A stretch of 36,508 nt of DNA, taken from NCBI GenBank assembly GCA_020724265.1, contig DYHH01000030.1, positions 1 through 36,508 of the forward strand, given 5' to 3'. Below, one piece after another: positions 2,240 through 18,995 of this stretch. A model generated the notes under the pieces. The model was not told where the DNA came from and searched no databases. It worked only from the letters and a program-made list of their open reading frames with translations. Within the stretch, counting starts at the first letter, position 1; the number at the start of each line of letters is the position of its first letter. A program made the position numbers and the translations under genes. This stretch comes from Melioribacter roseus (GTDB lineage Bacteria; Bacteroidota; Ignavibacteria; Ignavibacteriales; Melioribacteraceae).

Positions 2240-2261
2240 ACTTGATACTTGATACTCGATA

Positions 2262-5048: not shown

Positions 5049-5186
5049 TTATTTTTCCAGTAATCTGATTCTTTATCATTATCTTAATCCTAATCTTAAT
5101 CGTTTTTAATTCAGAACTGATTAAGACAGTTCAATAAATTAAAATTGACTTCCGGTTTAAGACCGGAATAACATATATCGCTTAAG
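5049..5186. repeat. Intra-operon spacer with dyads between rnfC and rnfD
   Basis: This 138-bp gap holds no gene. It contains reiterated CTTAATC/CCTAATC units around 5083-5101, an inverted pair CTTAATC (5095-5101) with GATTAAG (5119-5125), and a perfect seven-bp stem with a five-base loop at 5150-5168 (TTCCGGT and ACCGGAA). On the transcribed minus strand the second hairpin comes just after the rnfC stop and is followed by a loosely T-rich stretch. It could attenuate or protect the message between rnfC and the rest, or be an interspersed repeat remnant. Function is inferred. Confidence 0.45.
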
Positions 5187-6524
5187 CTATGCAGATTTTC
5201 GTTCTTTCTGCATTGCTAAAACTCTTTGTTTACCTAATCGTATCCATTGAACAAGCGGGATGTTTGCCGGACAAGTAAATGTGCATGTTCCGCATTCCAT
5301 ACAAACAGTAATATTATACGCTTCGGCATCTTCAAATCTATCAAGTTGTGAAAACCGGGAAAGTTTTGTCGGTATTAATCCAATCGGACAAACTTCAATA
5401 CATTTTCCGCATCTCAAACATGTTGTTTCTTCATGTAAATTTTCTTCGGTTTTTGTTAATATTAAAATTCCCGAAGTAGCTTTGGTAACCGGGGCTGAAA
5501 AATCAAATTGTGCAACTCCCATCATAGGACCACCGATTACAACTTTTGAAGCATCTTCGGTAATTCCTCCGCAGTATTCGATAACATTGGCAATTGGAGT
5601 TCCAACACGTACAATTAAGTTTTTCGGTTCTTTAATACCATACCCGCTTACAGTTAAAGCTGCAGTTATTTGAGGTTCGCCCTTAACAACTGCATCATAA
5701 ATAGCTAAGGCTGTCCCTATGTTTTGTATAACAGCACCGACATCAAGAGGAAGTTTTCCGGGAGGTACTTCACGATTCAATATTGCTTTAATCAACATCT
5801 TTTCGGCACCTTGCGGATATTTTGTTACCAATACTTCCACATTGATATTATCATATTTTGCTGCAGCTTCTTTTAATTTCTTTATAGCTTCTGGTTTGTT
5901 GTCTTCAATTCCAATATAACCTCTTCCGACACCGAGAGATTTCATTATTAGCCTCAATCCTTCAATTACCTCCTCGGTTCTTTCAATCATAAATCTATAA
6001 TCACGTGTTAAGTAAGGTTCACATTCGCAACCGTTAAGAATAACCGCTTCAATGTTTTGATTTGGCTGGGGAGTAATTTTTACAAATGTCGGGAACGCTG
6101 CTCCACCTTGCCCTACAATACCAGCCCATTTAACCCTTTGTTGAATTTCTTCCGGGGCTACGGTTTCAGGATTAAGTGGTTCTTTTAATTCTATTTCGTT
6201 TGAATCAGCTGCGTCAATTATTATCGAATCTTTTGGAAAACCCGAAGGTGTAATTTCGGTTGATATTTTTTTTACTTTACCCGAAACCGAACTATGAATA
6301 GGAACAGATATAAACCCGTCTGCTTCGGCTATTATTTGACCGGCTTTTACATCATCTCCTTTTTTAACTAATGGATTTGAAGGTTTACCTATATGCTGGA
6401 CTAAAGGAAGTATTACCTGCTTAGGATTCGGCATTATTTCAAATGATAAATTTTCACTGAGTTCTTTATATTCAGCCGGGTGAACTCCGCCTTGAAATGT
6501 TTTGGTTGATGTAAATAGTTTCAT
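5187..6524 (-). CDS. rnfC: Rnf electron transport complex subunit C
   Basis: 445-residue peripheral subunit that binds NADH/FMN and exchanges electrons with NAD+. The N-terminal barrel-sandwich-like region is at residues 40-90 (KKGDDVKAGQIIAEADG). A flavoprotein 51 kDa-like Rossmann region contains GQGGAAFPTF and NGCECEPYLTRD near 130-175. Two [4Fe-4S] motifs lie near 370-420 (CLRCGKCIEVCP and CMECGTCTFTCP). It starts at the ATG at 6524 with only a weak A-rich leader, and it is the first gene of the operon. With no NqrA or NqrF, the set is Rnf rather than Nqr. Confidence 0.97.
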   Translation of the reverse strand: MKLFTSTKTFQGGVHPAEYKELSENLSFEIMPNPKQVILPLVQHIGKPSNPLVKKGDDVKAGQIIAEADGFISVPIHSSVSGKVKKISTEITPSGFPKDSIIIDAADSNEIELKEPLNPETVAPEEIQQRVKWAGIVGQGGAAFPTFVKITPQPNQNIEAVILNGCECEPYLTRDYRFMIERTEEVIEGLRLIMKSLGVGRGYIGIEDNKPEAIKKLKEAAAKYDNINVEVLVTKYPQGAEKMLIKAILNREVPPGKLPLDVGAVIQNIGTALAIYDAVVKGEPQITAALTVSGYGIKEPKNLIVRVGTPIANVIEYCGGITEDASKVVIGGPMMGVAQFDFSAPVTKATSGILILTKTEENLHEETTCLRCGKCIEVCPIGLIPTKLSRFSQLDRFEDAEAYNITVCMECGTCTFTCPANIPLVQWIRLGKQRVLAMQKERKSA

Positions 6525-6717: not shown

Positions 6718-7641
6718 TTAAGCTACATGGGAGGGTACAAGTAATTCGGAACTTAGAAGTGAATTTCCATAAATCAAATTATTCTCCAGTCGATAAACTT
6801 CTGTTTCATAATTTTTATCTGTATCTATTATTAGAATTGATGATGCCTCAGAAAAAGAGTTATCCAGTGATCCGCCGGCATTAATAAACTTAATACCTTT
6901 TCTATAATATTCACGAATTTCATGACTGTGACCATGAAGAACTAATTTTACTTTATTTTCAGAAAACATGTTAATCAACTTTTTCTTTCCACGTAGTTTT
7001 AGAGTATAGCATTCAATTTTTTTCCAATAAGGATTAGAACTCGTTGCCTCTTCGGTGTTTTTATAAAAATGATGATGGGACAAAACTACTTTGTGTGCGA
7101 TTTTTTCATCCGTTTGTGAAAGCAAAGTTTTAATTGCATTAAATTGATCACGATAGATTTTTCCATTTGATGCGAATGGATTTTTTATTCTGGAATAGAA
7201 ATCAATTGTATTGATTCCGATTAGTTGAACATCATTAACATATTTTGAATACGGAAATAATAAATCCTTTCTAGAGAATGAACAATTCTCAAAAAGCTCC
7301 GCAAAGTATACGCCGAATTGACGAACTTTCTCATGAAAATCTGTCTTTAAACATTTAGAAGGAAAATTTAATACGTCATTTACTGTTTGGACTCCGCCAA
7401 AGATATCATGATTTCCGATTACAATAGAGGTCTTTCTGCTGTCGAGTAAGTCAAAAGTTTTTAGTATTTTACGAAAGATAACAAAGTCTTTTTCATTTGA
7501 ATTATCGGAAATATCGCCGGTAATTACTAGATGATCAAAACCAATCTCAAGGGCGAGATTTATTAACTTTTTAGTTTTACCAATATTATTTTTTCTTAGA
7601 TCCGAATTAAGATGGATGTCTGAAATATGAGCAATCCGCAT
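6718..7641 (-). CDS. Calcineurin-like metallophosphoesterase
   Basis: 307-residue cytoplasmic-looking protein with all five motifs of the dinuclear metallophosphoesterase fold: Asp8-x-His10 (SDIH), GD at 42-43, GNHD at 76-79, a His cluster at 189-191, and GHSH at 237-240. The layout resembles Icc/CpdA-type enzymes that cleave phosphodiesters such as cyclic nucleotides, or phospholipid head groups, but the substrate cannot be read from sequence. There is no signal peptide. It is divergent from the sugar operon, and the shared 7642-7825 region carries a Pho-box-like array, so a role in phosphate recovery is possible though unproven. Confidence 0.9.
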   Translation of the reverse strand: MRIAHISDIHLNSDLRKNNIGKTKKLINLALEIGFDHLVITGDISDNSNEKDFVIFRKILKTFDLLDSRKTSIVIGNHDIFGGVQTVNDVLNFPSKCLKTDFHEKVRQFGVYFAELFENCSFSRKDLLFPYSKYVNDVQLIGINTIDFYSRIKNPFASNGKIYRDQFNAIKTLLSQTDEKIAHKVVLSHHHFYKNTEEATSSNPYWKKIECYTLKLRGKKKLINMFSENKVKLVLHGHSHEIREYYRKGIKFINAGGSLDNSFSEASSILIIDTDKNYETEVYRLENNLIYGNSLLSSELLVPSHVA

Positions 7642-7777: not shown

Positions 7778-7825
7778 CTAAGCTTATTCTTTTTACGGAA
7801 TTTTGTAGAAAAAAAATTGAGAGTT

Positions 7826-8857
7826 ATGAAAAAGGAAAAAATACTTTTTATATGCGGTTCGCTTAACCAGACAACAATCATGCACCAAATAGCAAGTAAT
7901 TTAACAGATGACTATGATTGCTGGTTTACTCCTTATTATGCTGATGATTTTGTCAAACTGTATGCTAAACTCCGTTTAATCGATTATACAATTGTCGGCA
8001 ACGGAAATTTTAGAAAGCAAACTTTAGCATACTTCGGCAAGCATAATTTACAGATTGATAACAGAGGTGAAAAATATAACGATGATTATCAACTTGTTTT
8101 TACTTGTTCGGATTTAATAGTACCTAAAAATGTTAGGAACAAAAAAATTCTTCTTGTACAAGAAGGAATGACCGATCCTGAAACTTTTCCTTATTATCTT
8201 GTAAAATATTTACACTTACCGCGATGGTCTGCAAGTACATCAACAACCGGCATGTCTAATCTTTACACATATTTTTGTATTGCTTCGGAAGGTTACCGGG
8301 AATTGTTCATTCGTAAAGGTGCCGATCCGTCAAAACTAATCGTTACCGGGATACCAAATTTTGATAGTGTTCATCAATATCTTGATAATGATTTCCCCCA
8401 TAAAAATTATTTGCTGGTTGCTACTTCCGACATGCGCGAAACATTGAAGTATGAAAACCGGAAAAAGTTTATAAAGCGTGCTGTTGAAATTGCAGATGGT
8501 AGGCAAATAATCTTCAAACTGCACCCGAATGAAAATGTTAAACGAGCAACAAAAGAAATTAACAAATACGCGCCCGGTTCATTAACATATACTAACGGCA
8601 ACACAAATTATATGATTGCCAATTGTGAGATTTTATTAACTCGTTATTCCTCTGTTGTTCTCGTTGCTAAAGTGCTTGGCAAAAAAGTTTACTCGGATTT
8701 ATCCGAAGAAGAATTAACAAAATTAGCACCGATTCAAAATGGCGGAACATCTGCCGAAAGAATTGCAAGACTTGGAAGATGTTTAATTGAAGAACCGGCA
8801 AAAAATGAAAAAGAAATCCACGATGAGTTTGAATTAAAACAAGTTCTTTCTCATTAA
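7826..8857 (+). CDS. GT-B-like surface polysaccharide transferase (CDP-glycerol transferase/epimerase-like fold)
   Basis: 343 residues from ATG 7826; a TTG at 7817 would add three residues but is less likely. There is no signal peptide or membrane segment. The N-terminal half starts like a Rossmann domain (ILFICGSLNQTTIMHQIA). The C-terminal half has a KLHPNE motif near residue 235, then YMIANCEILLTRYSSVVLVA, the pattern shared by CDP-glycerol glycerophosphotransferases, capsule transferases and UDP-GlcNAc 2-epimerase-like GT-B proteins. It is the first gene of the sugar operon, 14 bp before the cytidylyltransferase. A role in transferring the CMP-activated sugar made by the operon is plausible. 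Donor and acceptor are unknown. Confidence 0.7.
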   Translation: MKKEKILFICGSLNQTTIMHQIASNLTDDYDCWFTPYYADDFVKLYAKLRLIDYTIVGNGNFRKQTLAYFGKHNLQIDNRGEKYNDDYQLVFTCSDLIVPKNVRNKKILLVQEGMTDPETFPYYLVKYLHLPRWSASTSTTGMSNLYTYFCIASEGYRELFIRKGADPSKLIVTGIPNFDSVHQYLDNDFPHKNYLLVATSDMRETLKYENRKKFIKRAVEIADGRQIIFKLHPNENVKRATKEINKYAPGSLTYTNGNTNYMIANCEILLTRYSSVVLVAKVLGKKVYSDLSEEELTKLAPIQNGGTSAERIARLGRCLIEEPAKNEKEIHDEFELKQVLSH

Positions 8858-8871
8858 GTTAATGATGTGTT

Positions 8872-9693
8872 ATGAAAGAAATTAATATTGTAACAGTCGT
8901 ACAAGCAAGAACAAGTTCTTCGCGTTTACCGAATAAAATTCTACTCTCCATAAAAGGTAAACCTCTACTATTGAGAATGTTGGAAAGAGTTAAAACTTCT
9001 AAGTATGCCAAATCTATTGTTGTCGCAACCTCAGCAGACAAAGAAGATGACCCGATAGAAAAACTTTGCAAAGAAAATAATTTAGAATTTTACAGAGGCA
9101 GTTCACATGATTTACTTGATAGACATTACCAAGTTGCAAAACTATTCGATGCTGATGCAGTTGTAAAAATTCCTTCCGATTGCCCATTAATAGATCCGGC
9201 TGCAATTGATACAGTGATTCAACATTTTCTTGAAAACATTGATAAATATGATTATGTGAGCAATCTTCATCCGGCAACTTACCCCGATGGGAATGATGTA
9301 GAAATAATGTCATTTAAAACATTAAAAACTGCCTGGATGGAAGCAGCAAAAGATTTTGAACGTGAACATACAACTCCATACATCTGGGAAAATAAGGATA
9401 AATTCAGAATAGGTAATGTTGAATGGGAAACCGGATTGGATTATTCAACAACTCACCGCTGGACGATTGATTATGAAGAAGATTATTTATTTATCAAGAC
9501 TGTGTATGAAAAATTGTTTGATATTAATCCCAACTTCGGAATAAATGATATTCTAAATCTGCTGAAAGAAAAACCTTATATTTATAAAATAAATGAAAAG
9601 CATCTCGGTAAATATTGGTATGAAAATCATCTTGATGAACTAAATAACATTAATGAATACAAGCAGAAGAGAGAATTCAAAAACAATGACTAA
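8872..9693 (+). CDS. spsF: SpsF-type cytidylyltransferase (acylneuraminate cytidylyltransferase-like)
   Basis: 273-residue nucleotidyltransferase of the SpsF branch of the CMP-sugar synthetases. The N-terminal nucleotide-binding signature VVQARTSSSRLPNKIL is at residues 9-24. It is followed by VVATSADKEDDPIE and the metal/nucleotide loop VVKIPSDCPLIDP near residue 100. It probably activates the operon's acidic ulosonic sugar with CMP. The stop overlaps the start of the downstream transketolase gene, so the two are translationally coupled. Length fits single-domain SpsF proteins. Substrate is inferred from context. Confidence 0.87.
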   Translation: MKEINIVTVVQARTSSSRLPNKILLSIKGKPLLLRMLERVKTSKYAKSIVVATSADKEDDPIEKLCKENNLEFYRGSSHDLLDRHYQVAKLFDADAVVKIPSDCPLIDPAAIDTVIQHFLENIDKYDYVSNLHPATYPDGNDVEIMSFKTLKTAWMEAAKDFEREHTTPYIWENKDKFRIGNVEWETGLDYSTTHRWTIDYEEDYLFIKTVYEKLFDINPNFGINDILNLLKEKPYIYKINEKHLGKYWYENHLDELNNINEYKQKREFKNND

Positions 9694-10543
9694 GGATGAA
9701 ATAAAGAAATTACAAGATCAGGCTTTACGAGTTAGAGAACATATTATTCGAATGTCCGGCAACGGAGGATGCTTTATTGGTGCATCACTGAGCTGTGCCG
9801 ATCTTACTGTTTATCTCTACAACAAATTTCTTAACACAACAAAAGATAATTTACAAGATCCGAATCGTGATTATCTTTTCCTTTCAAAAGGACATGACGT
9901 TCCGGCACTTTACGGAACATTTGTTGAATTAGGTTGGATGGAAAAGGATAGATTAAAAAATCATCTTAAAACAAATGATAATATTTACTGGCATCCCAAT
10001 AGAAATATTCCCGGTATTGAATTCCATTCCGGTTCTTTGGGACATTTACTTTCAGTTTCTCTCGGTGTTGCTATTGATTGCAAACTTCAAAAACAGACTA
10101 ACAAGGTAGTTACGATTGTTGGTGACGGTGAACTTAACGAGGGTTCTAATTGGGAGGCTCTTTTAGTTGCATCAGCTCATAAAGTTGATAACTTATGTAT
10201 TGTAGTTGATAGAAATGCATTTCAAGCTAATATGCCTACAGAAGATTTAATTCCGCTTGAACCGCTTGAGAAAAAGTTCGAAGCATTCGGATGTTCGGTT
10301 AAAAGAATTAACGGTCACGATTTTGAAGAGATGGAGAATGCATTCTCTTCATTCCCCTTTGATAAAAATAATGTTTCTGTAATAATTGCCGATACAATTC
10401 GAGGTAAAGGTTTACCAAGCATTGAAAAACGTGCAGATAGATGGTTTGTAAATTTTAAAGATGAAGAAGTAGAAGCACTTTTAAAAGAACTACACGGTGT
10501 TGCAAAAGCTGAACTTACATCAGAAACATTGACGGTGCGCTAA
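9686..10543 (+). CDS. Transketolase, N-terminal (TPP-binding) subunit
   Basis: 285 residues from ATG 9686, which overlaps the spsF stop; an upstream in-frame ATG at 9653 lies inside spsF and is less likely. The thiamine pyrophosphate motif GDGELNEGSNWEA is at about 145-157, followed by VVDRNAFQA, and SKGHDVPALYGTF lies near residue 71. Free-standing N-terminal transketolase subunits pair with a separate C-terminal subunit, which is the next gene. They transfer a two-carbon ketol unit between sugar phosphates. Placement inside a CMP-ulosonate operon suggests a dedicated enzyme that builds a sugar precursor, not the pentose-phosphate housekeeping enzyme. Confidence 0.9.
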   Translation: MTKDEIKKLQDQALRVREHIIRMSGNGGCFIGASLSCADLTVYLYNKFLNTTKDNLQDPNRDYLFLSKGHDVPALYGTFVELGWMEKDRLKNHLKTNDNIYWHPNRNIPGIEFHSGSLGHLLSVSLGVAIDCKLQKQTNKVVTIVGDGELNEGSNWEALLVASAHKVDNLCIVVDRNAFQANMPTEDLIPLEPLEKKFEAFGCSVKRINGHDFEEMENAFSSFPFDKNNVSVIIADTIRGKGLPSIEKRADRWFVNFKDEEVEALLKELHGVAKAELTSETLTVR

Positions 10544-11442
10544 TGAACTACGAAGATTTATTACATCAATTAGCTACAAATGATCAACGATACATTATTA
10601 TCACTGCTGAAAATAGAGCGGCGATTAGAACATTACCGTCAAAAATTGAGAATCAATTTTTAGATACAGGAATTACGGAACAAACAATGGTTGGAGTTGC
10701 TGCCGGAATGGCATTGCGCGATAGAATCCCGATTGTACATGCACTTGCAACATTTTTAACAATGCGTGCATTTGAGTTTATTCGTACAGATGTCGGAATC
10801 GGTAATTTACCTGTTAAAATTGTAGGAGCTGTTCCGGGATTTTTATCTGACGCAAACGGACCAACTCATCAAGCAATTGAAGATATTTCATTGATGCGCG
10901 GAATTCCGAATATGAAAATATTTTGTCCGGCAGATGAAGACGATATGTTAAAAGGATTACCAAAAGTCTTTACCGATGAATCACCTTTTTATATTAGATA
11001 TAACAATCAAAAACCATTGGTTGAACATGAAGATTTTAAAATCGGTAAAGCAGAAATTTTTGGTGATGGAAAAGACATCGCAATTTTAACTTATGGTTTT
11101 CTTTTTAATCAAGCATATCAAGCAAAAGAATTACTTGAAGACAAAGGTTATAACGTAAGATTGATTAATCTTCGAACTCCAAAACCAATAGATGAAGATG
11201 CAGTTTTAAATGCCGCAAATGATTGTAAACTATTAGTCACATTAGAAGATCATTTTATTACCGGAGGTTTATTTTCTATCTTATCAGAATTGTTATTAAA
11301 AAATAAACAGACAGCAGATGTATTCCCAATTGCGTTAATGGATAAATGGTTCAAACCGGCTTTACTTAATGATGTTTTAGAGTATGAAGGGTTTACGGCA
11401 AAGCAAATTGCTGATAAAATTGAAATAAGAATAAAAAGTTGA
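10543..11442 (+). CDS. Transketolase, C-terminal subunit
   Basis: 299-residue partner of the preceding gene, carrying the pyrimidine-binding domain and the C-terminal domain. The segment RTLPSKIENQFLDTGITEQ near 22-40 holds the catalytic Glu that activates TPP. GPTHQAIEDISLMRGIPNM near 106-124 is typical of the family. The ATG overlaps the upstream stop by one base (TAATG), so the two halves are translationally coupled, as expected for a 1:1 complex. Length is normal for a split transketolase. Confidence 0.9.
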   Translation: MNYEDLLHQLATNDQRYIIITAENRAAIRTLPSKIENQFLDTGITEQTMVGVAAGMALRDRIPIVHALATFLTMRAFEFIRTDVGIGNLPVKIVGAVPGFLSDANGPTHQAIEDISLMRGIPNMKIFCPADEDDMLKGLPKVFTDESPFYIRYNNQKPLVEHEDFKIGKAEIFGDGKDIAILTYGFLFNQAYQAKELLEDKGYNVRLINLRTPKPIDEDAVLNAANDCKLLVTLEDHFITGGLFSILSELLLKNKQTADVFPIALMDKWFKPALLNDVLEYEGFTAKQIADKIEIRIKS

Positions 11443-11460
11443 TAAAGGAGTTGCATCTTT

Positions 11461-12792
11461 ATGCCCAATAAAATTGACTTAAATAATGACTATCCCGTTA
11501 TTGAAAAATCAGAAGAGCTTTACAAACGTTCACTTGGATTGATTCCCTCAAACACACAAACACTCGCAAAAGGTCCGACACAATATGTAAACGGAATGGC
11601 ACCGAAATATTTAGTTAAAGGTAAAGGTTCACATGTTTGGGATGTTGACGGAAATGAATACATCGATTATAATATGGGTATCGGTCCCCTCTCGCTCGGT
11701 TATGCATACGATAAAGTTGATGAAGCAGTAAAAAAACAATTGAAAGACGGAATTACATTTTCTCTCGTTCATCCTTTGGAAGTTGAAGTTGCAGAAATTA
11801 TTCGTAATATAATTCCGAATGCAGAAATGGTTCGTTATAGTAAAACCGGTGCGGATGTTACGAGTGCAGCCGTCAGACTTGCAAGAGCTTACACAGGCAA
11901 AAATAAAATCTTATGCTGCGGTTATCATGGCTGGCACGATTGGTATGTTTCGGTCACCGCACGCAACCACGGCATTCCGGAAGCTGTTCAAGCGATTACT
12001 TACACATTCGATTATAATAATATTGATTCACTAAAAGACTCAATCGATGATGATGTTGCAGCGGTAATTTTAGAACCGGTTGTTTTTCAAGAACCAAAGG
12101 ATAATTTCCTTCATAAAGTTGCTGATTTATGTAATGAAAAAAATGTTATTCTTATCTTTGATGAAATGTGGACCGGATTTAGAATGGCACTCGGCGGAGC
12201 TCAAGAATATTTTGGTATCACTCCCGACCTCGCAACTTATTCTAAAGCTGTTGCCAACGGTATGCCGATTTCAATTCTAACCGGGAAAAAGGAAATTATG
12301 CAGTTAGCCGATGAAGACATTTTCTTCTACACAACATTCGGAGGAGAAGCATTATCACTTGCAGCTGTTAAAGCAACAATTGCAGAAATGAAAGAGAGAA
12401 ATGTTCCGGCATATCTCGATAAACAAGGTGCAAAGTTAAAAGAAGGTTATAATAAAATTGCCGAAGAACTCGGAATAGATTATACCAAAGCAAGCGGATA
12501 TAATTGGCGTTCAATTGTTACATTTGATGCTAAAGCCGGGGACCCGTTGATATTAAAATCACTTGTTCAGCAGGAAATGATTAAGCGTGGTGTACTTTGG
12601 GGAGGATTTCATAATATGTCATTCTCTCATACCGATGAAGATATTGAATATACATTGAATGCTTACGAACAAGCTTTACCTATTTTGAAAAAGGCAGTTG
12701 AAGAAAACAATGCAAAAGTATTATTAAGAGGAAAACCGGTGCAGCCCGTATTCCGAAAAACAGAGAACTTTAACATGAAGCCCAGACACTAA
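11461..12792 (+). CDS. Class III aminotransferase (glutamate-1-semialdehyde aminomutase-like)
   Basis: 443-residue PLP enzyme of fold type I, class III. The PLP-binding Asp lies in LIFDEMWTGFR (Asp234) and the Schiff-base lysine in TYSKAVANGMP (Lys262). RYSKTGADVTSAAVRLARAYTG near residue 121 resembles the glutamate-1-semialdehyde aminomutase signature. A good ribosome binding site (AAGGAG) lies about ten bases upstream. In this setting it probably aminates a sugar aldehyde or ketone, not a haem precursor. The last three codons (Arg-His-stop) lie inside the inverted repeat that flanks the next gene, so the native C-terminus may have been altered by an insertion. Confidence 0.88.
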   Translation: MPNKIDLNNDYPVIEKSEELYKRSLGLIPSNTQTLAKGPTQYVNGMAPKYLVKGKGSHVWDVDGNEYIDYNMGIGPLSLGYAYDKVDEAVKKQLKDGITFSLVHPLEVEVAEIIRNIIPNAEMVRYSKTGADVTSAAVRLARAYTGKNKILCCGYHGWHDWYVSVTARNHGIPEAVQAITYTFDYNNIDSLKDSIDDDVAAVILEPVVFQEPKDNFLHKVADLCNEKNVILIFDEMWTGFRMALGGAQEYFGITPDLATYSKAVANGMPISILTGKKEIMQLADEDIFFYTTFGGEALSLAAVKATIAEMKERNVPAYLDKQGAKLKEGYNKIAEELGIDYTKASGYNWRSIVTFDAKAGDPLILKSLVQQEMIKRGVLWGGFHNMSFSHTDEDIEYTLNAYEQALPILKKAVEENNAKVLLRGKPVQPVFRKTENFNMKPRH

Positions 12793-13226
12793 TTTCACGA
12801 ATTACACAAATGAGATATTAATTGACGAAAGAGTTGTTATATAAAGATGAAGCTTATGCCATTGTTGGATGTTGTATGGAAGTGCACAAAACATTAGGCA
12901 AGGGCTTTAATGAAATTGTTTATAAAGATGCACTTGAGATTGAATTTAAGATAAATGACATTCCTTATGAAAGAGAAAAGAAATTTGAATTGATGTATAA
13001 AAACTTTCAACTCCCACGTCAATACAATGCGGATTTTGTTGTTTATGATAAAATAATTTTGGAAGCAAAAGCAATTGAATCATTATCTAATTCTAACATA
13101 AAACAAACATTGAACTATCTTGCAGCATCTAAAATGAAATTAGGTTTATTAGTAAATTTTGGAGAAGATTCATTAAAATACAAAAGAGTAATTTTATAAT
13201 TAGCGTAATTGGTGAAATTCGTGTCT
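12784..13226. mobile_element. Inverted-repeat-bounded GxxExxY element
   Basis: A 28-bp arm at 12784-12811 matches the reverse complement of 13199-13226 at 24 of 28 positions. The GxxExxY gene fills the space between. The left arm contains the last codons and stop of the aminotransferase. The right arm contains the GxxExxY stop and runs directly into the ATG of the SDR. No clear target-site duplication was seen. The structure suggests an inserted unit within an otherwise tight sugar operon. Whether it is or was mobile is inference. Confidence 0.55.
12822..13199 (+). CDS. GxxExxY family protein (PD-(D/E)XK nuclease-like)
   Basis: 125 residues from a TTG at 12822. The signature GFNEIVY fits G-x-x-E-x-x-Y near residues 28-34. 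It is preceded by YAIVGCCMEVHKTLG and followed by a nuclease-like core, NADFVVYDKIILEAKAIE near 64-82, where Asp and Glu-x-Lys could form a PD-(D/E)XK site. GLLVNFG near the end is also family-typical. The function of the family is unknown. In Bacteroidota relatives these genes occur in many copies as isolated inserts between unrelated genes, which fits its place here between two sugar genes. Family call is confident; activity is not. Confidence 0.87.
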   Translation: MTKELLYKDEAYAIVGCCMEVHKTLGKGFNEIVYKDALEIEFKINDIPYEREKKFELMYKNFQLPRQYNADFVVYDKIILEAKAIESLSNSNIKQTLNYLAASKMKLGLLVNFGEDSLKYKRVIL

Positions 13227-14024
13227 ATGTTTTCGTTAATAAATAAGACAGCAATCGTTACCGGTGCACTTGGGTTAATCGGAAAGGAACATTGCAAAGC
13301 CTTATCCGAAGCCGGCGCAAATGTAATTGTAGCCGACATAGATGATAAGAAAAGTGAAGAATTTGCAAAGACTTTGAAAACAGAATCCATCGGGATTGGA
13401 ATAGATGTAACAAACAAAGATTCATTAATTAACGCACGAGATAAAATTTTAGAAAAGTTCGGTCACATTGATATACTTGTAAACAACGCTGCAATAAATG
13501 ACATGTTTGAAAATCCTAAAGCTGCAAGCGAACAGAGCAAGTTTGAAAATTATCCATTAGAACTCTGGCAGAAATCAGTTGACGTAAATTTAACCGGAGT
13601 GTTTCTCTGTTCACAAGTTTTCGGGACAGAAATGGCAAAGCAGAAATCCGGCAGCATAATTAACATTGCATCGACTTACGGTATGACCGCTCCCGATCAA
13701 TCATTATATATTAAGAAAGACGGAACACAGGATTTCTTCAAACCTCCGGCTTATTCGGCAACAAAAGGTGGAGTGATAATGTTCACTCGTTATCTCGCCG
13801 CTTATTGGGGAAAAGATAATGTAAGAGTAAATACATTAACTCCCGGCGGAGTTGAAAATAACCAAGATGAATTTTTTATTGAACAGTATTCTAAACGAAC
13901 AATGTTAAACAGAATGGCAAAACCAACCGACTACAAAGGTGCACTGATTTTCTTAGCAAGTGATTCATCAAATTATGTGACAGGTGCTAACCTTGTTGTT
14001 GACGGAGGTTGGACGGAGTGGTAG
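13227..14024 (+). CDS. Short-chain dehydrogenase/reductase
   Basis: 265 residues from ATG 13227. Upstream in-frame TTG/GTG codons exist, but they lie inside the inverted repeat. It is a classical SDR: the NAD(P) loop TGALGLIG is at residues 12-19, NNAA near residue 90, Ser in NIASTYG near 149-155, and catalytic Tyr176-x-x-x-Lys180 in YSATKGG. Residues AKPTDYKGALIFLASDSSNYVTGANLVVDGGW (two blocks) close the fold. It likely oxidises or reduces a sugar intermediate of the operon. It has no Shine-Dalgarno, because its leader is the right arm of the GxxExxY-flanking repeat. Confidence 0.9.
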   Translation: MFSLINKTAIVTGALGLIGKEHCKALSEAGANVIVADIDDKKSEEFAKTLKTESIGIGIDVTNKDSLINARDKILEKFGHIDILVNNAAINDMFENPKAASEQSKFENYPLELWQKSVDVNLTGVFLCSQVFGTEMAKQKSGSIINIASTYGMTAPDQSLYIKKDGTQDFFKPPAYSATKGGVIMFTRYLAAYWGKDNVRVNTLTPGGVENNQDEFFIEQYSKRTMLNRMAKPTDYKGALIFLASDSSNYVTGANLVVDGGWTEW

Positions 14025-14084
14025 TAATGATTTGATTGTTGTGTATCCATTTAATCAATCAGAAATTAACAAGAGGATATTAAA

Positions 14085-14543
14085 GTGATCCAAATTTATT
14101 ATATAGACACTTCTGTTTTAGGTGGTGTATTTGATGAAGAATTTAGTTCTTATTCATCTATGTTAATTGAAGAATTTATTTTAGGGAATAAAATTGCCGC
14201 TGTATCGGAGGTTACTTTGCAAGAATTGGAACGAGCACCGAAAAAAGTTCAAAATATTTATAAAGAAGTTTCTAGAAAACACATAAAAATATTTAGATTA
14301 GATCATGCTTCTAAAACACTTGCAAATAAATACATTAATGAAAAGGCAATTAGTCCAAATTTTTTATTAGATGCACAACATATTGCAATTGCTACGGTAA
14401 ACAAAGTCGATGTATTAGTTAGCTGGAATTTTAAGCATATAGTTAACTTAAGACGAATAAAATTGTATAATTCAATCAATTTAAAGAACGGATATCCTTT
14501 ATTAGAAATCCGTTCACCAAGAGAGGTTGTTGAAAATGAGTAA
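14085..14543 (+). CDS. PIN domain protein (VapC-like toxin candidate)
   Basis: 152 residues from a GTG at 14085, with a ribosome binding site (AGAGG) about nine bases upstream. It has PIN-domain acidic residues in order: Asp in YYIDTSV (residue 8), Glu in VTLQELERAP (about 45-47), Asp in LLDAQHIAIA (about 97) and Asp in KVDVLVSWNFKHIVN (about 107). PIN proteins are metal-dependent RNases, mostly toxins of type II systems. A 55-residue gene overlaps its end and is the likely antitoxin. The pair interrupts the sugar operon between the SDR and the phosphatase genes and has no obvious metabolic link. Confidence 0.82.
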   Translation: MIQIYYIDTSVLGGVFDEEFSSYSSMLIEEFILGNKIAAVSEVTLQELERAPKKVQNIYKEVSRKHIKIFRLDHASKTLANKYINEKAISPNFLLDAQHIAIATVNKVDVLVSWNFKHIVNLRRIKLYNSINLKNGYPLLEIRSPREVVENE

Positions 14544-14703
14544 AACCAAAGCCAAGAAATTTGACGCTGTTAAAATGATGAGAGAGATTCGCGAAAAGTT
14601 ATCTCGTGAGTATGAAAAGAATCCACAAAAACAAAAAGAAGATTTAGAAAGCATCAGAAAAAAGTATGGTGTAAAACCTAAATACTCACGTAAAATGAAA
14701 TGA
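14536..14703 (+). CDS. Small basic/acidic protein, probable antitoxin of the PIN gene
   Basis: 55 residues starting MSKTKAKKFDAVKMMREIRE, from an ATG that overlaps the end of the PIN gene by eight bases. It is rich in Lys, Arg and Glu and is predicted to be mostly helical. The MMREIREKLSREYE stretch resembles the short helical antitoxins found beside PIN proteins of this type. The tight overlap argues for a real, co-translated gene. The toxin-before-antitoxin order is the reverse of classical vapBC. No DNA-binding domain can be named. The function is inferred from position and size. Confidence 0.65.
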   Translation: MSKTKAKKFDAVKMMREIREKLSREYEKNPQKQKEDLESIRKKYGVKPKYSRKMK

Positions 14704-14748
14704 TTCAACTCTTTTTAACACTGAGGGAGTTTGAATAATAAGGACTCT

Positions 14749-15267
14749 ATGAAATCAAACACACTAGAAAAAGCACGCAAAATTAAATTAGTCCTAACCG
14801 ATTGCGACGGTGTTTTAACCGATACCGGAACTTATTATACCGCAAATGGTGAAGAGATGAAACGGTTTTCAATACGTGACGGAATGGGAACAGAACGATT
14901 ACGAAAATTCTGTAATATAGATACCGGAATTGTTACCGGCGAGAACAGCGGAATTGTAACGAGTCGCGCTGCAAAGTTAAATATTACCGAAGTTCATCTT
15001 GGTATTAAAGATAAGGTATCATGCGTAAATGAAATTTGCGAGCGATTGAATTTAAAGTTGGATGAAATTGCATTCATCGGCGATGACACAAACGATATCG
15101 AAATAATGAAGATTGCCGGTTTAACCGCATGCCCGTCCGATGCAACTAGATTCGTGAAAGAACTTGCGGATGTAATTGTCGAAAGCAAAGGCGGACATGG
15201 TGCATTTCGTGATTTTGCCGAAATGATTATAGAAGCCAACTTGAATAAAAATGAGGATAAAAATTAA
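14749..15267 (+). CDS. KdsC-type HAD phosphatase (ulosonate-phosphate phosphatase)
   Basis: 172 residues from ATG 14749, which has AAGGA four bases upstream; a TTG at 14731 is an alternative. It is a C0-type HAD phosphatase: the DxD nucleophile motif is at Asp18-Cys-Asp20 (LTDCDGVLTD), Thr lies in GIVTGENS, Lys in GIKDK, and the metal loop is IGDDTNDIEIM. It shares size and motifs with KdsC, which dephosphorylates Kdo-8-phosphate, and with NeuC-neighbour phosphatases. The stop overlaps the neuB-like ATG by one base. Together these imply that the condensation product is a phosphorylated ulosonic acid that must be dephosphorylated before CMP activation. Confidence 0.88.
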   Translation: MKSNTLEKARKIKLVLTDCDGVLTDTGTYYTANGEEMKRFSIRDGMGTERLRKFCNIDTGIVTGENSGIVTSRAAKLNITEVHLGIKDKVSCVNEICERLNLKLDEIAFIGDDTNDIEIMKIAGLTACPSDATRFVKELADVIVESKGGHGAFRDFAEMIIEANLNKNEDKN

Positions 15268-16139
15268 TGACAAAAGTAAAAGTCGGTGACCGTTATATTG
15301 GCGAAGGTGAACCTGTTTATATTATTGGTGAAATCGGAATCAACCATAACGGATCGATTGATATTGCAAAAAAATTAATTGACGGTGCTGCTGCAGCAGG
15401 TTGTGATGCAGTCAAGTTTCAAAAAAGGACTCCCGAATTATGCGTCCCTTCTGATCAATGGTATATTGAACGTGAAACTCCTTGGGGTAGAATGACTTAT
15501 ATAGAATATCGTCATAAAATTGAGTTCAATGAAAAAGAATACGAGATTATTGATAAATATTGTAAGGAGAAAAACATTCATTGGTTTGCCTCGCCCTGGG
15601 ATGAAGAAGCAGTAAACTTTTTGGAAAAATTTAATCCGGTTTGTTATAAACTCGCATCGGCTTCGTTAACGGATAATTTTCTTCTTAAAAAAGTTAAATC
15701 AACCGGTAAACCGATTATGCTTTCTACCGGTATGTCGACCTTGGAAGAAATCGATAAAGCAATTTCAATTTCAGGAACCGATAATTTAATGCTCGCGCAA
15801 TCTACGTCTTCTTATCCTTGTAAACTTGAGGAACTTAATTTGAAAGTGATTGGTTCGTTCAAAGAAAGATATCCGAATGTACCAATAGGATATTCGGGAC
15901 ATGAAACCGGTCTGGCGCCGACACTTGCTGCAGTTGCTTTGGGTGCTGCTTTTGTTGAAAGACATATTACTTTGGATCGAGCAATGTGGGGAACCGATCA
16001 AGCTGCTTCAGTTGAAATGGTTGGTATGACAAGACTTGTTAAAGATATTCGCGATATTGAAAAAGCTCTCGGCGACGGAATTAAAAAAGTTTACAATAGT
16101 GAAAAACCTTCGCTGGTAAAATTGAGAAGAGTAAAATAA
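15267..16139 (+). CDS. NeuB-type PEP-condensing synthase, short form without SAF domain
   Basis: 290-residue TIM-barrel enzyme of the sialic acid synthase family, which condenses PEP with an aldose to give a 3-deoxy-ulosonic acid. Family blocks are IGEIGINHNG near residue 20, AGCDAVKFQKR near 45, STGMSTLEEI near 151, STSSYPC near 176 and GYSGHETG near 210. The usual C-terminal SAF (antifreeze-like) domain of about 60 residues is absent: the protein stops right after the barrel at KLRRVK. The His of the usual HCTS motif is Gln (AQSTS), and the GPDH motif reads GTDQ. These changes point to a substrate other than an N-acetylmannosamine type sugar. It is translationally coupled to the KdsC-like gene. 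Confidence 0.9.
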   Translation: MTKVKVGDRYIGEGEPVYIIGEIGINHNGSIDIAKKLIDGAAAAGCDAVKFQKRTPELCVPSDQWYIERETPWGRMTYIEYRHKIEFNEKEYEIIDKYCKEKNIHWFASPWDEEAVNFLEKFNPVCYKLASASLTDNFLLKKVKSTGKPIMLSTGMSTLEEIDKAISISGTDNLMLAQSTSSYPCKLEELNLKVIGSFKERYPNVPIGYSGHETGLAPTLAAVALGAAFVERHITLDRAMWGTDQAASVEMVGMTRLVKDIRDIEKALGDGIKKVYNSEKPSLVKLRRVK

Positions 16140-16232
16140 CCTTAGTGTTACTTTGAGTGTACTTTGTGGTACTTTGTGAAACTTAAACACAAAGAACCAT
16201 GGAGAAGACACGGAGAACCACAGAGTTTCCTT
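16140..16232. repeat. Intergenic dyad repeat (CTTTGTG/CACAAAG type)
   Basis: The spacer between the synthase and hydroxylase genes holds reiterated ACTTTGTG/ACTTTGAG words on the left, and CACAAAG, CACGGAG and CACAGAG words on the right, so the two halves are roughly inverted. It has no start codon context of its own beyond serving as leader for the hydroxylase ATG at 16233. It looks like a member of the word-repeat dyads seen at several other junctions of this window. Confidence 0.5.
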
Positions 16233-17057
16233 ATGATAGATTCGATCATAAATTTCATCACAAATTATTATAACTCACTTTCCTTCCCGGAATTAATTTC
16301 ATTTGGATTAATTATTGTCGGGGCATTTGTTATAATTTTACTCGAAAGAATTTTCCCTTATACAAAGGGACAAAAATTTTTACGTGAAGGATTCTTTAAT
16401 GATCTTGCTTTATATACAATCGCACAGAGTTATATCCTCGGAATAATAATTTTCGGTGGAATAATTTATTACATCGACAATACAACGGGTTTATCAAGAC
16501 TCGGTTTATTTGCAAATGTCCCGATTTGGATTCAGTTAGTTTTCTTTACAATCACACATGATATTTACATCTATTGGATGCATCGCTGGCAGCACAAGAA
16601 TAAATGGTTGTGGAGAATTCACGAAGCACATCACTCACCAAAGAAAGTCGATTGGCTAAGCGGTTCTCGTTCACATGCATTTGAAATTCTTATCAACCAA
16701 ACAATTGAATTTGCACCGATTGTTTTACTTGGCTCACCACCGGAAGTTATTGCTTATAAAGGTGTCATAAGTGCCGTTTGGGGAATGTATATTCACTCAA
16801 ATATTAATGTAAATACCGGAAGATTTCAGTATATAATTAACGGACCGGAAATGCATCGCTGGCATCACGATGTAGGTAAAGGACGCAACAGAAATTTTGC
16901 TACAAAGCTCGCAATTTGGGATTGGATTTGGGGTTCCGCATATCTCCCCCGTCCGGAAAAACCAAAAGAATATGGTTTGAAATCTTACTTCCCCGATAAT
17001 TTTATCATGCAGTTCATTTTTGCTTTTATGGATTCTAAAGCTCGGAAGAAAAAATAA
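16233..17057 (+). CDS. Fatty acid hydroxylase/sterol desaturase family membrane protein
   Basis: 274 residues from ATG 16233; the longer upstream frame runs through repeat DNA and is rejected. There are about four membrane helices. The di-iron histidine clusters of the family are complete: His109 and His117-x-x-x-His121 (HDIYIYWMHRWQH), His130-x-x-His133-His134 (HEAHH), His188, and His208-x-x-His211-His212 (HRWHH). These enzymes hydroxylate or desaturate lipids using O2. OlsE, an ornithine-lipid hydroxylase of rhizobia, belongs to this superfamily. The next gene is an OlsF-like aminolipid synthase, so acting on that lipid is a reasonable guess. Substrate is unproven. Confidence 0.88.
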   Translation: MIDSIINFITNYYNSLSFPELISFGLIIVGAFVIILLERIFPYTKGQKFLREGFFNDLALYTIAQSYILGIIIFGGIIYYIDNTTGLSRLGLFANVPIWIQLVFFTITHDIYIYWMHRWQHKNKWLWRIHEAHHSPKKVDWLSGSRSHAFEILINQTIEFAPIVLLGSPPEVIAYKGVISAVWGMYIHSNINVNTGRFQYIINGPEMHRWHHDVGKGRNRNFATKLAIWDWIWGSAYLPRPEKPKEYGLKSYFPDNFIMQFIFAFMDSKARKKK

Positions 17058-17064
17058 AAGAAAT

Positions 17065-17100
17065 GGGAACGCAGATCATTATGATTTTTTATGATTGTCA
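17065..17100. repeat. Copy of GGAACGC(A/T)GAT...TTATGAT repeat
   Basis: Just after the hydroxylase stop, GGAACGCAGAT is followed by two TTATGAT words. The same word order occurs, inverted, at 34244-34271 between sir2 and queD. The sharing of an exact 7-bp head and two spaced TTATGAT words between distant intergenic sites supports a dispersed repeat family. Confidence 0.5.
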
Positions 17101-17145
17101 TTGATTTATCCACAGCTCTGACATGAAATCGTATAAACAGTTTTC

Positions 17146-17184
17146 TTAACATTCTCTTAATTATTTTTTAACAATCTAATAACT
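17146..17184 (+). promoter_or_regulatory. Pho-box-like array before the OlsF-like gene
   Basis: Hexamers TTAACA (17146), TTAATT (17157), TTAACA (17168) and ATAACT (17179) lie exactly 11 bp apart, the same layout and orientation as at 7739-7777. The array ends 59 bp before the ATG at 17244. Phosphate-starvation control of aminolipid synthesis is well known in other bacteria, so the match of site and gene function is mutually supporting. PhoB/PhoP binding is inferred. Confidence 0.62.
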
Positions 17185-17243
17185 TGTCCTCGCCTATTTC
17201 CGTAGTTAACTTTCCATGCAATAAGCTAAGGAGTATTACGGAA

Positions 17244-18995
17244 ATGCAAAAAATCAATATTGAAAAGTTGATTGATGAGAAATACCCAAAACTCTTCGAA
17301 AAGAAACCGCGTTTTATAAAAAATCTCACTCTTCGAATTTTCGAAAGAGTTTTACATATAAACGAAATAAATTCATTTATACAAAAACATGAAGACACAA
17401 GAGATATAGAATTTATTGACGAAGTCTTTGAAATGCTGAACTTCTCATTTAGAATTGCAAACAAAGATATTAAACGAATTCCGTCGGAAGGAAGATTAAT
17501 CTGTGTAGCTAATCATCCGATCGGGAGTCTTGATAGTTTGTCATTAATAAAACTTATCTCAGAAATCAGAACTGATGTTAAAATTGTTGCCAACGATGTA
17601 TTACTGAATATAGAAAATTTGAGAAATTTATTTTTACCTTTCAATCTTGAGAGTCAATCATCACAAAAGCAAAACGTTCTTGCAATCGGTGAAGCACTCA
17701 ATAAAGAAATGGCTGTAATAATATTTCCGGCAGCCGAAGTTTCTCGTTTAAATTGGTTTCAAGTACTGGATGGGAAATGGCACAAAGGTGCAATATACTT
17801 TGCAAGAAAATATAATTCGCCTATTCTACCGATTTATATTGATGCAAAAAACTCCTCTTTTTTCTACCTGTTTTCGATTATACACAAAGGTCTTTCTCGT
17901 GTTCTTCTTTCGCATGAATTATTCAATAAAAGAAATAAAATAATTAATATGAAAATCGGTGATCCGATTCCCCCGGTTGCATTCACAAATAATTTTATTA
18001 ATGATAAATATCAAACGAAATTATTAAAAAAGCATGTTTATCTGATCGCGAAAAATAGGGATGGAATTTACAAGACTGAAAAAAATATAATTCATCCAAT
18101 CGATAGAAAATCAATTAAACGTGAGTTGAATAATGCACAACTAATTGGTGTTACTTCAGATGAGAAGAAAATATTATTAACGGGGTTCTATGATTCACCG
18201 AATGTATTAAATGAAATTGCCAGATTAAGAGAAATTACATTTCGTAAAGTCGGCGAAGGAACAGGAAAGAAAATGGATTTTGATCGTTTTGATAAGCATT
18301 ACAAACATCTAGTTGTTTGGGATGAAAATGAATTAGAAATTGTCGGTTCTTACAGGATTGGATTAGGAAGTGAAATTACTAAATCCATCGGCAATGATGG
18401 TTTTTATACTTCAACAATTTTTGAGTATGATAACGAGTTTAAGAAAAAAATCATGCCCAATTCAATTGAACTCGGAAGAAGTTTCGTACAGAAGAAATAT
18501 TGGAATACCAATGCATTGAATTATTTGTGGCAAGGTATCGGTGCTTTCCTTGTTCATCATGAAAATGTTAAATATATGTTTGGCGGTGTGAGTATAAGCA
18601 ATAACTATCCGGAAAGCGCAAAGAAAATGATTGTATATTACTTTAAAAAGTGGTTCGGAAATGAAAATTTACTTGCTTCGGCATTTTCACCGTTTAATAT
18701 TCCGGAGACTTCAAAATTTGAGTATGATCAAATATTTACCGGGAATGATTATAAAGAAGATTACAGAATATTGAAAACAATGCTTAAGCCATATGGATTC
18801 TCCGTTCCGATTCTTTACAAACATTATTCGGAACTGTGTTATGAAGGTGGAGTAAAATTTCTAGATTTTGCGGTTGATGAATCTTTTGAAAATTGTATAG
18901 ATGGACTAATTTTAGTCGATGTCGATCTTATAAAAAATGAAAAACGAGAAAGATTTATTTCCTGTCATAAACCTAACTTACTTGTTAGTGCATAA
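17244..18995 (+). CDS. olsF: OlsF-like bifunctional aminolipid synthase (PlsC-type acyltransferase + OlsB-type GNAT)
   Basis: 583 residues from ATG 17244, preceded by AAGGAG; a TTG at 17184 overlaps the Pho-like box and is rejected. The N-terminal half is a lysophospholipid acyltransferase-like domain with NHPIGSLD at about 90-97 and FPAAEVSR at about 161-168. The C-terminal half (about 320-560) is an OlsB/hemolysin-type GNAT domain, with ARLREITFRKVGEGTG near 326 and ELGRSFVQKKYW near 410. This fusion order is that of OlsF, which N-acylates and then O-acylates ornithine to make ornithine lipid. Glycine or another amino acid is possible in this phylum. No signal peptide; probably membrane-associated. 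Confidence 0.87.
   Translation: MQKINIEKLIDEKYPKLFEKKPRFIKNLTLRIFERVLHINEINSFIQKHEDTRDIEFIDEVFEMLNFSFRIANKDIKRIPSEGRLICVANHPIGSLDSLSLIKLISEIRTDVKIVANDVLLNIENLRNLFLPFNLESQSSQKQNVLAIGEALNKEMAVIIFPAAEVSRLNWFQVLDGKWHKGAIYFARKYNSPILPIYIDAKNSSFFYLFSIIHKGLSRVLLSHELFNKRNKIINMKIGDPIPPVAFTNNFINDKYQTKLLKKHVYLIAKNRDGIYKTEKNIIHPIDRKSIKRELNNAQLIGVTSDEKKILLTGFYDSPNVLNEIARLREITFRKVGEGTGKKMDFDRFDKHYKHLVVWDENELEIVGSYRIGLGSEITKSIGNDGFYTSTIFEYDNEFKKKIMPNSIELGRSFVQKKYWNTNALNYLWQGIGAFLVHHENVKYMFGGVSISNNYPESAKKMIVYYFKKWFGNENLLASAFSPFNIPETSKFEYDQIFTGNDYKEDYRILKTMLKPYGFSVPILYKHYSELCYEGGVKFLDFAVDESFENCIDGLILVDVDLIKNEKRERFISCHKPNLLVSA

Follow-up and report, generated by a model that had tools for sequence, protein, structure and literature searches.

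What would a bacterium make with a two-subunit transketolase and a class III aminotransferase encoded side by side with a sialic acid-type synthase? This question is raised by a 36,508-nucleotide stretch of DNA recorded for Melioribacter roseus (contig DYHH01000030.1 of assembly GCA_020724265.1; the whole stretch is referred to as the window), whose plus strand carries an operon of such genes at 7826–17057. Profile scores over the family cut-offs confirmed all seven enzyme families that an initial annotation, made from the sequence alone, had recognized here in a single orientation. On balance, we favour the view that the operon constitutes a dedicated route to a cytidine monophosphate (CMP)-activated, most probably amino-substituted 3-deoxy-2-ulosonic acid, which would be transferred to a surface glycan or lipid.

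In this proposed route, a specialised thiamine diphosphate (ThDP)-dependent transketolase, split here and a single chain elsewhere, would turn a non-standard ketose or aldose into a sugar phosphate, and an aminotransferase resembling glutamate-1-semialdehyde aminomutase (GSAM), usually together with a short-chain dehydrogenase/reductase (SDR), would add nitrogen to the carbon chain ahead of phosphoenolpyruvate (PEP) condensation. A NeuB-family synthase devoid of the SAF domain would then join the aldose phosphate and PEP, a KdsC-like phosphatase would strip the phosphate, SpsF would add CMP, and a protein of GT-B fold would pass the activated sugar to an acceptor. What is known of these families would predict that NeuB condenses, KdsC dephosphorylates, SpsF transfers CMP and a glycosyltransferase (GT) carries out the last step; the phosphorylated acceptor of the synthase, the order in which aminotransferase, SDR and transketolase act, the product and its acceptor are parts that we infer. 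As the dedicated transketolase would supply a sugar that is already phosphorylated, a separate kinase would be unnecessary.

The grouping of these genes is not a chance one. Among 51 stretches fetched on the basis of NeuB matches, mostly the stronger ones, 44 bear the operon; left out were two that hold NeuB alone of the operon genes (L059, L079) and five that had been fetched as ordinary or second NeuB (L082–L086). In all 44 chosen loci, the GT, SpsF, aminotransferase (AT3), SDR and NeuB genes follow one another in identical order and on the same strand, at 50–97% identity, which excludes a fortuitous arrangement. Both transketolase subunits (TktN and TktC) are found in 31 of the 44, a single-chain transketolase takes their slot in two, and 11 have neither; KdsC is present in 29 loci and the hydroxylase-like gene, on the same strand, in 34. 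A search with the aminotransferase gave 520 confirmed stretches, of which the best 80 were considered, such that the taxonomic spread is a lower bound. In the 49 of these 80 loci that extend at least 5.5 kb before and at least 5 kb after the aminotransferase gene, we counted NeuB in 46, SpsF in 45, GT in 44, SDR in 43 (the SDR of L126, behind a run of N, being uncounted) and split TktN in 32, at an identity threshold of 35%. The 80- and 44-locus sets share many genomes and are not independent. An apparent AT3–SDR fusion in L126 was rejected, the contig having that run of N at this place instead.

Within the best 80 of 520, the closest aminotransferase relative belongs to an Ignavibacteria metagenome-assembled genome (MAG; 93% identity), followed at 83–74% by records named Melioribacter, Melioribacteraceae, Stygiobacter, Ignavibacteria or Bacteroidetes; the same 80 also include Kapaibacteria, KSB1, Chloroherpetonaceae/Thermochlorobacteriaceae, Bacteroidales, one Myxococcota MAG and one Nitrospirae MAG. 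Exceptions to the compact arrangement exist. TktC, aminotransferase, NeuB and hydroxylase genes stand together in L160, L173 and L185, with GT, SpsF, TktN and SDR not beside them, and in genomes G155, G205 and G132 GT-SpsF-TktN forms a second group away from NeuB, which in G155 lies ∼40 kb from a group of TktC, AT3, NeuB and the fatty-acid-hydroxylase-like gene. Two loci (L054, L056) have an unassigned open reading frame (ORF) of 707–710 aa between TktN and TktC. Besides, a KSB1 variant (L134, 4675–12895) combines a NeuB of 50% identity with a Gfo/Idh/MocA oxidoreductase, a distant HAD phosphatase and a methyltransferase gene lying between those for SDR and NeuB.

The transketolase is encoded by TktN (9653–10543), the ThDP-binding subunit with PF00456 (Transketolase_N; 87.1 bits, cut-off 22), and TktC (10543–11442), the pyrimidine-binding and C-terminal subunit with PF02779 (Transket_pyr; 95.9 bits, cut-off 27) and PF02780 (Transketolase_C; 74.8 bits, cut-off 25.9). 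Judged by conservation, the true start of TktN is probably an internal ATG near 9686. Among the findings that would refute it, the initial annotation had named this pair being the organism's only transketolase; elsewhere in the same genome we found a canonical Tkt (903.5, cut-off 682.25) and DXS (822.7, cut-off 465.95), on which ground a housekeeping function of the operon enzyme was rejected.

To what extent, then, does the second transketolase follow the operon? We searched 164 genomes of the order (Ignavibacteriales; "class" denotes Ignavibacteria throughout) with NeuB and TktN, scoring a genome as operon-positive when it has a short NeuB (E < 1e-70) and sorting the best TktN match per genome into split (below 1e-100), second form (1e-100 to 1e-36) or, if weaker, none. 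This scheme would hide a second form in any genome that also has a split pair; among the matches listed, no split-pair genome had this kind of single chain. Among the 87 operon-positive genomes, 37 have the split form, 38 the second form and 12 neither, as compared to 4, 3 and 70 of the 77 operon-negative ones, i.e. a second transketolase in 75/87 versus 7/77. With completeness of at least 90%, the contrast becomes 57/61 versus 5/52 (Fisher p 3e-21). Because the genomes are related, such p-values overstate their independence and the table by genus is safer: 37 of 39 operon genera have a second transketolase versus 2 of 29 others, and the two forms are never mixed among operon-positive members of one genus. 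In the second-form band, all 38 operon-positive genomes have a listed match in a frame longer than a split subunit (329–696 aa), 33 of these frames measuring between 656 and 677 aa; of the three operon-negative genomes in this band, G386 offers no more than a split-type subunit of 279 aa. Four of the 12 operon-positive genomes counted as lacking a second transketolase are at least 90% complete (G019, G211, G366, G330), and one of these, G211, was counted as absent although its single-chain gene is present across two frames. Within the order, a dedicated transketolase is thus tied to the operon.

The single-chain form occupies the TktN/TktC slot in L057 and L073 and in four MAGs named Bacteroidales or Draconibacterium (L156, L161, L162, L170). 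Single chains taken from six loci, like the pieces in G211, are 53–58% identical to the in-operon transketolase of a Bacteroidales-named MAG and 29–32% identical to the joined split pair, suggesting that one transketolase form displaced the other. Where the single-chain gene is unlinked, no shared context surrounded it in six neighbourhoods (L205–L210), as judged from unannotated ORF lists. Across the class sample, the split orthologue of TktN (E < 1e-100) does keep company with the operon: it is found in 75 genomes, 72 of which have a short NeuB, the exceptions being G151, G217 and G224. Two of these exceptions, which lack a short-NeuB match, carry TktN relatives of 56–58% identity (L214 in G151, L215 in G217), accompanied by TktC in L214, and the surroundings of these genes could point to a simpler use for such a transketolase.

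The active site of the split enzyme appears to be rebuilt. Some genes are present as copies from two collections in the 77 TktN and 79 TktC rows compared here; setting the window aside, the TktN rows number 76 with 67 different sequences, and the TktC rows, counted ahead of length filtering, 81 with 71. The best PDB relatives are the split transketolase entries 6yak (TktN) and 6yaj (TktC). The Asp and Asn for Mg/ThDP are kept in 77/77 TktN rows and the catalytic Glu in 79/79 TktC rows, as are the H66-like (76/76 aligned rows), H100-like (74/76) and, in the THQ motif of TktC, H473-like histidines (79/79). The positions corresponding to H26 and H261, which we take to be the active-site histidine pair of E. 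coli transketolase, are Phe in 76/76 aligned and 77/77 TktN rows, respectively, and in 76 rows a His replaces the Gln of GPLGQG. Relative to 6yaj, TktC carries S→R, H→V/F/I and D→N in all 79 rows. Both histidines are present in the canonical Tkt and DXS of the same genome, in the single-chain form (12/12) and in 6yak, with the H261-like His of the canonical Tkt and of 6yak falling one alignment column off and those of DXS and the single chain aligning directly; the H and D of 6yaj that TktC has lost are missing from the single-chain form as well. According to the accessible part of PMC11659671, RSFHR is a phosphate-orienting residue set, whose RAFDR version in a sulfofructose transketolase is read there as altered specificity. 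Of the last four residues of this set, TktC keeps the F and the R and has S and H changed. The two His-to-Phe replacements and the altered residues at the substrate end make it probable that the substrate is non-standard, and we regard the split pair as a probably active, albeit non-standard, ThDP transketolase.

Does the synthase, on the other hand, belong to a conventional sialic acid route? The NeuB gene (15267–16139; PF03102, 259.3 bits, cut-off 22.1) encodes 290 aa that stop at the end of the barrel, aligning to Neisseria meningitidis NeuB (NmNeuB) only up to residue 284 of 349. The C-terminal SAF/antifreeze-like domain is missing, and the AlphaFold model (predicted local distance difference test score, pLDDT, 88.2) contains no extra domain. 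The protein scores below equivalog cut-offs (TIGR03569, NeuB, 248.7 vs 399.65; PseI 213.2 vs 340.25), in the case of TIGR03569 partly because of the missing domain. Residues E22, K50, Q52, K128, Y183, H212, H233 and D244 are invariant in 21 NeuB sequences, including those aligned with E25, K53, H215, H236 and D247 of NmNeuB, which are presumably catalytic or ligand-binding. The model is nearest to 6ncs, a SAF-less Leptospira enzyme (TMq 0.86), the TMq values to 6ncs and 1xuu being 0.86–0.87. By fold and conserved residues, the protein is a member of the NeuB superfamily of PEP-condensing barrels.

The synthase lies in a clade of its own: in a tree of 66 rows, a branch with 100/100 support separates 56 short NeuBs from PseI, SpsE, NmNeuB, 6ncs and six ordinary NeuBs (this tree holds four reference chains, and the outsiders have long branches and an unsure order among themselves). 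NeuB matches occur in 134 of 294 class genomes; among the matches listed, the short clade is mostly 57–94% identical, with two members at 47–50%, and ordinary NeuBs reach at most 41%. Short-clade copies with operon partners absent from the fetched stretch were seen in L059, L085 and L086, the latter two adjoining an acyltransferase gene in genomes that also carry the operon (G195, G029). The genome under study is 99.98% complete. It contains no second NeuB, the operon copy being the sole one; no NeuC, its only Epimerase_2 protein being WecB (228.2, cut-off 210.15; NeuC model 60.6, cut-off 235.9); and no PseB over the cut-off among eight weak matches (best 49.3 vs 407.75). With one NeuB and no NeuC, the legionaminic route, too, was not found in this genome, in which LegB was not searched. 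As a positive control, a genome of the same genus (G106) has a LegB-LegC-NeuD-NeuB-NeuC cluster with each member over its cut-off, apart from its own copy of the present operon.

On these grounds (a single NeuB in a separate clade, no NeuC and no PseB over the cut-off), the standard sialic, legionaminic and pseudaminic acid routes were rejected, in keeping with the non-standard route anticipated by the initial annotation. That such an ordinary route nonetheless operates with its precursor genes elsewhere is highly improbable: NeuB family membership and the NeuC-like fold of the first gene would speak for it, but it leaves the transketolase and the class III aminotransferase unexplained, besides being at odds with the SAF-less synthase and with the genes missing from the genome. 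Replacement of 3-deoxy-D-manno-oct-2-ulosonic acid (Kdo) synthesis was likewise rejected as a sole explanation, given that a separate KdsA passes its cut-off elsewhere in the genome (371.3 vs 314) and that the operon synthase is of the NeuB family.

The pyridoxal phosphate (PLP)-dependent class III aminotransferase (11461–12792; Aminotran_3, 175.4 bits, cut-off 30.5) has glutamate-1-semialdehyde aminomutases as its closest PDB relatives and stays under the cut-offs of PRK06209 (407.3 vs 486) and hemL (251.5 vs 527.3). K262, by alignment with GSAM presumably the PLP lysine position, and K37 are invariant in 21 sequences; Lys37 aligns with an N-terminal Arg of GSAM that we take to be functional there, and behind the YHG motif the loop is shorter than in GSAM. 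HemL as the identity of this enzyme was rejected, the true HemL being encoded elsewhere in the genome (613.6 vs 527.3). The SDR (13209–14024; PF13561, 170.1 bits, cut-off 27), whose true start is probably the conserved ATG near 13227, remains under curated cut-offs (PRK09186 194.1 vs 255; PtmA 140.2 vs 350), and the accessible part of the PtmA/PtmF study (PMC4481668) was of no help in placing the operon. For the KdsC-type HAD phosphatase (14731–15267; TIGR01670, 144.0 bits, cut-off 106.95), the nearest curated model is a KDN-9-phosphate phosphatase (NF058599, 173.7 vs cut-off 180), which fits a phosphorylated ulosonate. SpsF (8872–9693; PF02348, CTP_transf_3, 105.4 bits, cut-off 22.6), a CMP-sugar (ulosonate) cytidylyltransferase by type, has the cytidylyltransferase 6oew as its best PDB relative (E 2.3e-40).

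The first gene may encode the CMP-ulosonate transferase, for which its product is a candidate. Its frame, 7817–8857, opens with TTG at 7817, and the in-frame ATG at 7826 is the start that the initial annotation had given to the operon (gene 7826–8857). The GT-B-fold model (pLDDT 88.6) is nearest to UDP-GlcNAc 2-epimerases (Z 18.8) and TagF (Z 16.6). Among 26 homologues, weak matches were obtained to Epimerase_2 (24), Glyphos_transf (18), surf_polysacc (22) and BFO_1060 (18), with the window protein itself under the cut-offs of all four models. D/E-D/E-G and HP are named as motifs of bacterial sialyltransferases in the accessible part of PMC6388019. H233-P234, invariant in 26 sequences, matches HP, a two-letter motif and hence weak evidence; for D/E-D/E-G no match was found in this protein, the best candidate being Q112-E113-G114, also invariant in 26. 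The 50 fold matches listed contained no sialyltransferase, which carries no weight either way.

While the start of the operon thus agrees with the initial annotation, its end does not: the conserved gene order runs on beyond NeuB to an OlsE-like membrane protein of the fatty-acid-hydroxylase superfamily (16164–17057; PF04116, 102.7 bits), which the initial annotation had overlooked and which scores 121.9 of the 475 required by the OlsE model. The next gene (window 16164–18995 for the two) encodes 603 aa with the domains Acyltransf_2 and Acetyltransf_5, presumably an aminolipid-type pairing of acyltransferase domains. This acyltransferase gene lies near the operon in 4/44 loci and in 11/80 of the aminotransferase-search set. 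The sugar might have a lipid as its acceptor.

Several observations weigh against the route we favour. Nitrogen in the product is argued for solely by the presence of the aminotransferase, and the names NeuB, SpsF and AT3 express family resemblance, as none of the three passes an equivalog cut-off. The altered residues of the transketolase include ones reported to orient the phosphate, so its substrate might carry no standard phosphate. KdsC is absent from 15/44 loci, where another phosphatase would be required, so the acceptor is only presumably phosphorylated. The SDR may not be indispensable: in 7 of 11 further picked genomes the only SDR found is 44–47% identical, the other four having one at 63–69%. 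Given its likeness to UDP-GlcNAc 2-epimerases, the first gene may act in a NeuC-like epimerase role. In the class, 23 of 95 short-NeuB genomes lack the split orthologue; beyond the order, operon-negative genomes commonly give TktN matches of 1e-35 to 1e-56, in many cases to other split-type subunits (e.g. G021, G011, G038), and the link between second transketolase and operon is therefore demonstrated within the order alone. As to direction, extension of a chain and cleavage of an amino-ketose fit the transketolase equally well. The chain lengthening that the initial annotation had proposed is thus one candidate for the reaction of this enzyme.

These uncertainties give room to other versions of the pathway. 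One, reminiscent of aminoshikimate synthesis, would have SDR and aminotransferase produce an amino-ketose phosphate, from which the transketolase removes a two-carbon ketol to leave an amino- or imino-aldose phosphate for condensation with PEP, with nitrogen at or near C4. Although we deem this version unlikely, loss of the H26- and H261-like histidines along with retention of the H66-, H100- and H473-like ones is what could be expected if the group at ketose C3, where we presume such histidines to act, is not a hydroxyl. Similar parts (oxidoreductase, transaminase, transketolase, iminoerythrose 4-phosphate, PEP condensation) make up the rifamycin pathway in the accessible text of PMC8788734. 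Yet the single-chain transketolase that replaces the split pair retains both histidines in 12/12 sequences, and the operon has neither a kinase nor an isomerase. Nor is its class III aminotransferase of the DegT type, to which RifK belongs. Another version spells out the chain extension of the initial annotation: the transketolase would extend an aldose phosphate by two carbons, the resulting ketose being aminated and oxidised to a 2-amino-aldose phosphate for NeuB, with a C10 ulosonic acid in the case of sedoheptulose 7-phosphate. Such a course would suit the GSAM kinship of the aminotransferase, as these aminomutases act on adjacent C1/C2 carbonyl and amine, and the SDR gene comes next after the aminotransferase gene in the conserved order. 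We nevertheless give it little credence: the direction has no direct evidence, the housekeeping transketolase already yields standard ketose phosphates while the dedicated one has an altered pocket, and in 7 of the 11 further genomes no SDR closer than 44–47% identity was found.

A product that is free of nitrogen or aminated at its far end, i.e. an ordinary aldose phosphate built up to a Kdn- or Kdo-type skeleton, on whose distal carbons SDR and aminotransferase act, has a precedent in Kdo8N of Shewanella. It could draw on the phosphatase, which is just short of the KDN-9-phosphate phosphatase cut-off, on class III enzymes that act on terminal carbons (the C-6′ aminotransferases 7lm0 and 7lld) and on the phosphorylated route known from B. 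thetaiotaomicron (accessible part of PMC6200933). A product of this kind would, however, need no dedicated transketolase, although one tracks the operon in the order, and the genome has a KdsA of its own; it appears improbable to us. Decidedly doubtful, too, is a more specific form of the favoured route, in which the split pair, with Phe in place of its two histidines, is retuned for a nitrogen-bearing ketose, splitting or forming the bond at a carbon that bears nitrogen and not oxygen, and NeuB would yield an ulosonic acid of the 4-amino-3,4-dideoxy type or aminated in a similar way. An aminolipid or lipopolysaccharide (LPS)-like carrier is suggested for it because the OlsE-like hydroxylase gene ends the operon.

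Of the remaining features in the operon region, two ORFs that the initial annotation had passed over are accessory insertions: a GxxExxY-family ORF at 12822–13199 (TIGR04256, 139.1 bits) and a PIN-like one at 14085–14543 (PF01850, 21.6 bits, below the cut-off of 23.6), both on the plus strand. The former recurs in 1/44 loci (2/80 in the aminotransferase-search set) and the latter in 0/44, and both are outside the conserved operon. Relatives L140 and L141 have a YhcG-type nuclease and an aldo/keto reductase inserted in their operons, and the operon seems to be a collector of such insertions. The stop/start overlaps reported by the initial annotation were found as one-base overlaps at 10543 and 15267 and as an overlap of the SpsF and TktN ORFs. 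Upstream of the operon, the minus strand carries genes of an Rnf-type complex together with ApbE (window 1274–6524), and a metallophosphoesterase ORF (6718–7641) lies between these and the operon.

The individual families and the NeuB-phosphatase-CMP transferase type of pathway are known; for their present combination, no description was found among the hits listed from the open-licence PMC literature, subscription journals having been outside the search, and the accessible part of PMC12342839 uses similar words for unrelated genes. If aminated as proposed, the product may be new, and a 4-amino-3,4-dideoxy-type ulosonic acid may represent a CMP-sugar class not found described in the same literature. 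Should the proposed pathway hold true, environmental bacteria (Ignavibacteria and relatives) would possess a further entry into sialic acid-like sugars, from sugar-phosphate carbon and not from a nucleotide-linked N-acetylhexosamine (HexNAc). A new monosaccharide would join those known from cell surfaces, together with a transketolase remodelled at its active site and several soluble enzymes open to assay; surveys of nonulosonic acid producers that count NeuB alone would mislabel such bacteria.

How, finally, does this operon compare with known systems? HemL proteins are the closest solved relatives of the aminotransferase, from which it differs in its low model score, in Lys37 replacing Arg and in the shorter loop after YHG. 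With the legionaminic, pseudaminic and N-acetylneuraminic acid routes (NeuB, LegI, PseI), the operon has in common that a NeuB-family enzyme carries out the condensation with PEP and that the sugar is activated with CMP; those routes start from UDP- or GDP-HexNAc precursors and employ a full-length, SAF-bearing synthase on an unphosphorylated acceptor. GDP- and UDP-GlcNAc are given as precursors in the accessible part of PMC6388019. SqwGH, acting on 6-deoxy-6-sulfofructose, and the Carboxydothermus hydrogenoformans enzyme (6yaj/6yak) are two-subunit transketolases like TktN/TktC, and the sulfofructose enzyme resembles the operon pair in being changed at substrate-orienting residues (RSFHR→RAFDR; PMC11659671, accessible part). 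SqwGH is catabolic, however, and in the two stretches that have Phe in TktN, 6yak shows His. The Kdn-9-phosphate pathway of the Bacteroides thetaiotaomicron type, also known from Prymnesium, likewise comprises a NeuB-family synthase, a phosphatase and a CMP transferase, and a phosphorylated intermediate is proposed in both cases. It differs in using mannose 6-phosphate directly, the route as described in the accessible part of PMC6200933 making do with neither a transketolase nor an aminotransferase nor an SDR. Oxidoreductase, aminotransferase, transketolase and PEP condensation are shared, on the other hand, with the aminoshikimate pathway to 3-amino-5-hydroxybenzoic acid (AHBA; rif cluster with RifK, RifL and RifH), where the transketolase is orf15 (orf15A and orf15B in the figure legend) and yields the iminoerythrose 4-phosphate that is condensed with PEP (accessible part of PMC8788734). 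There, RifH leads via amino-3-deoxy-D-arabino-heptulosonate 7-phosphate (aminoDAHP) to an aromatic acid, with no CMP transfer to a surface sugar. Its aminotransferase, moreover, is of another family than that of the operon.

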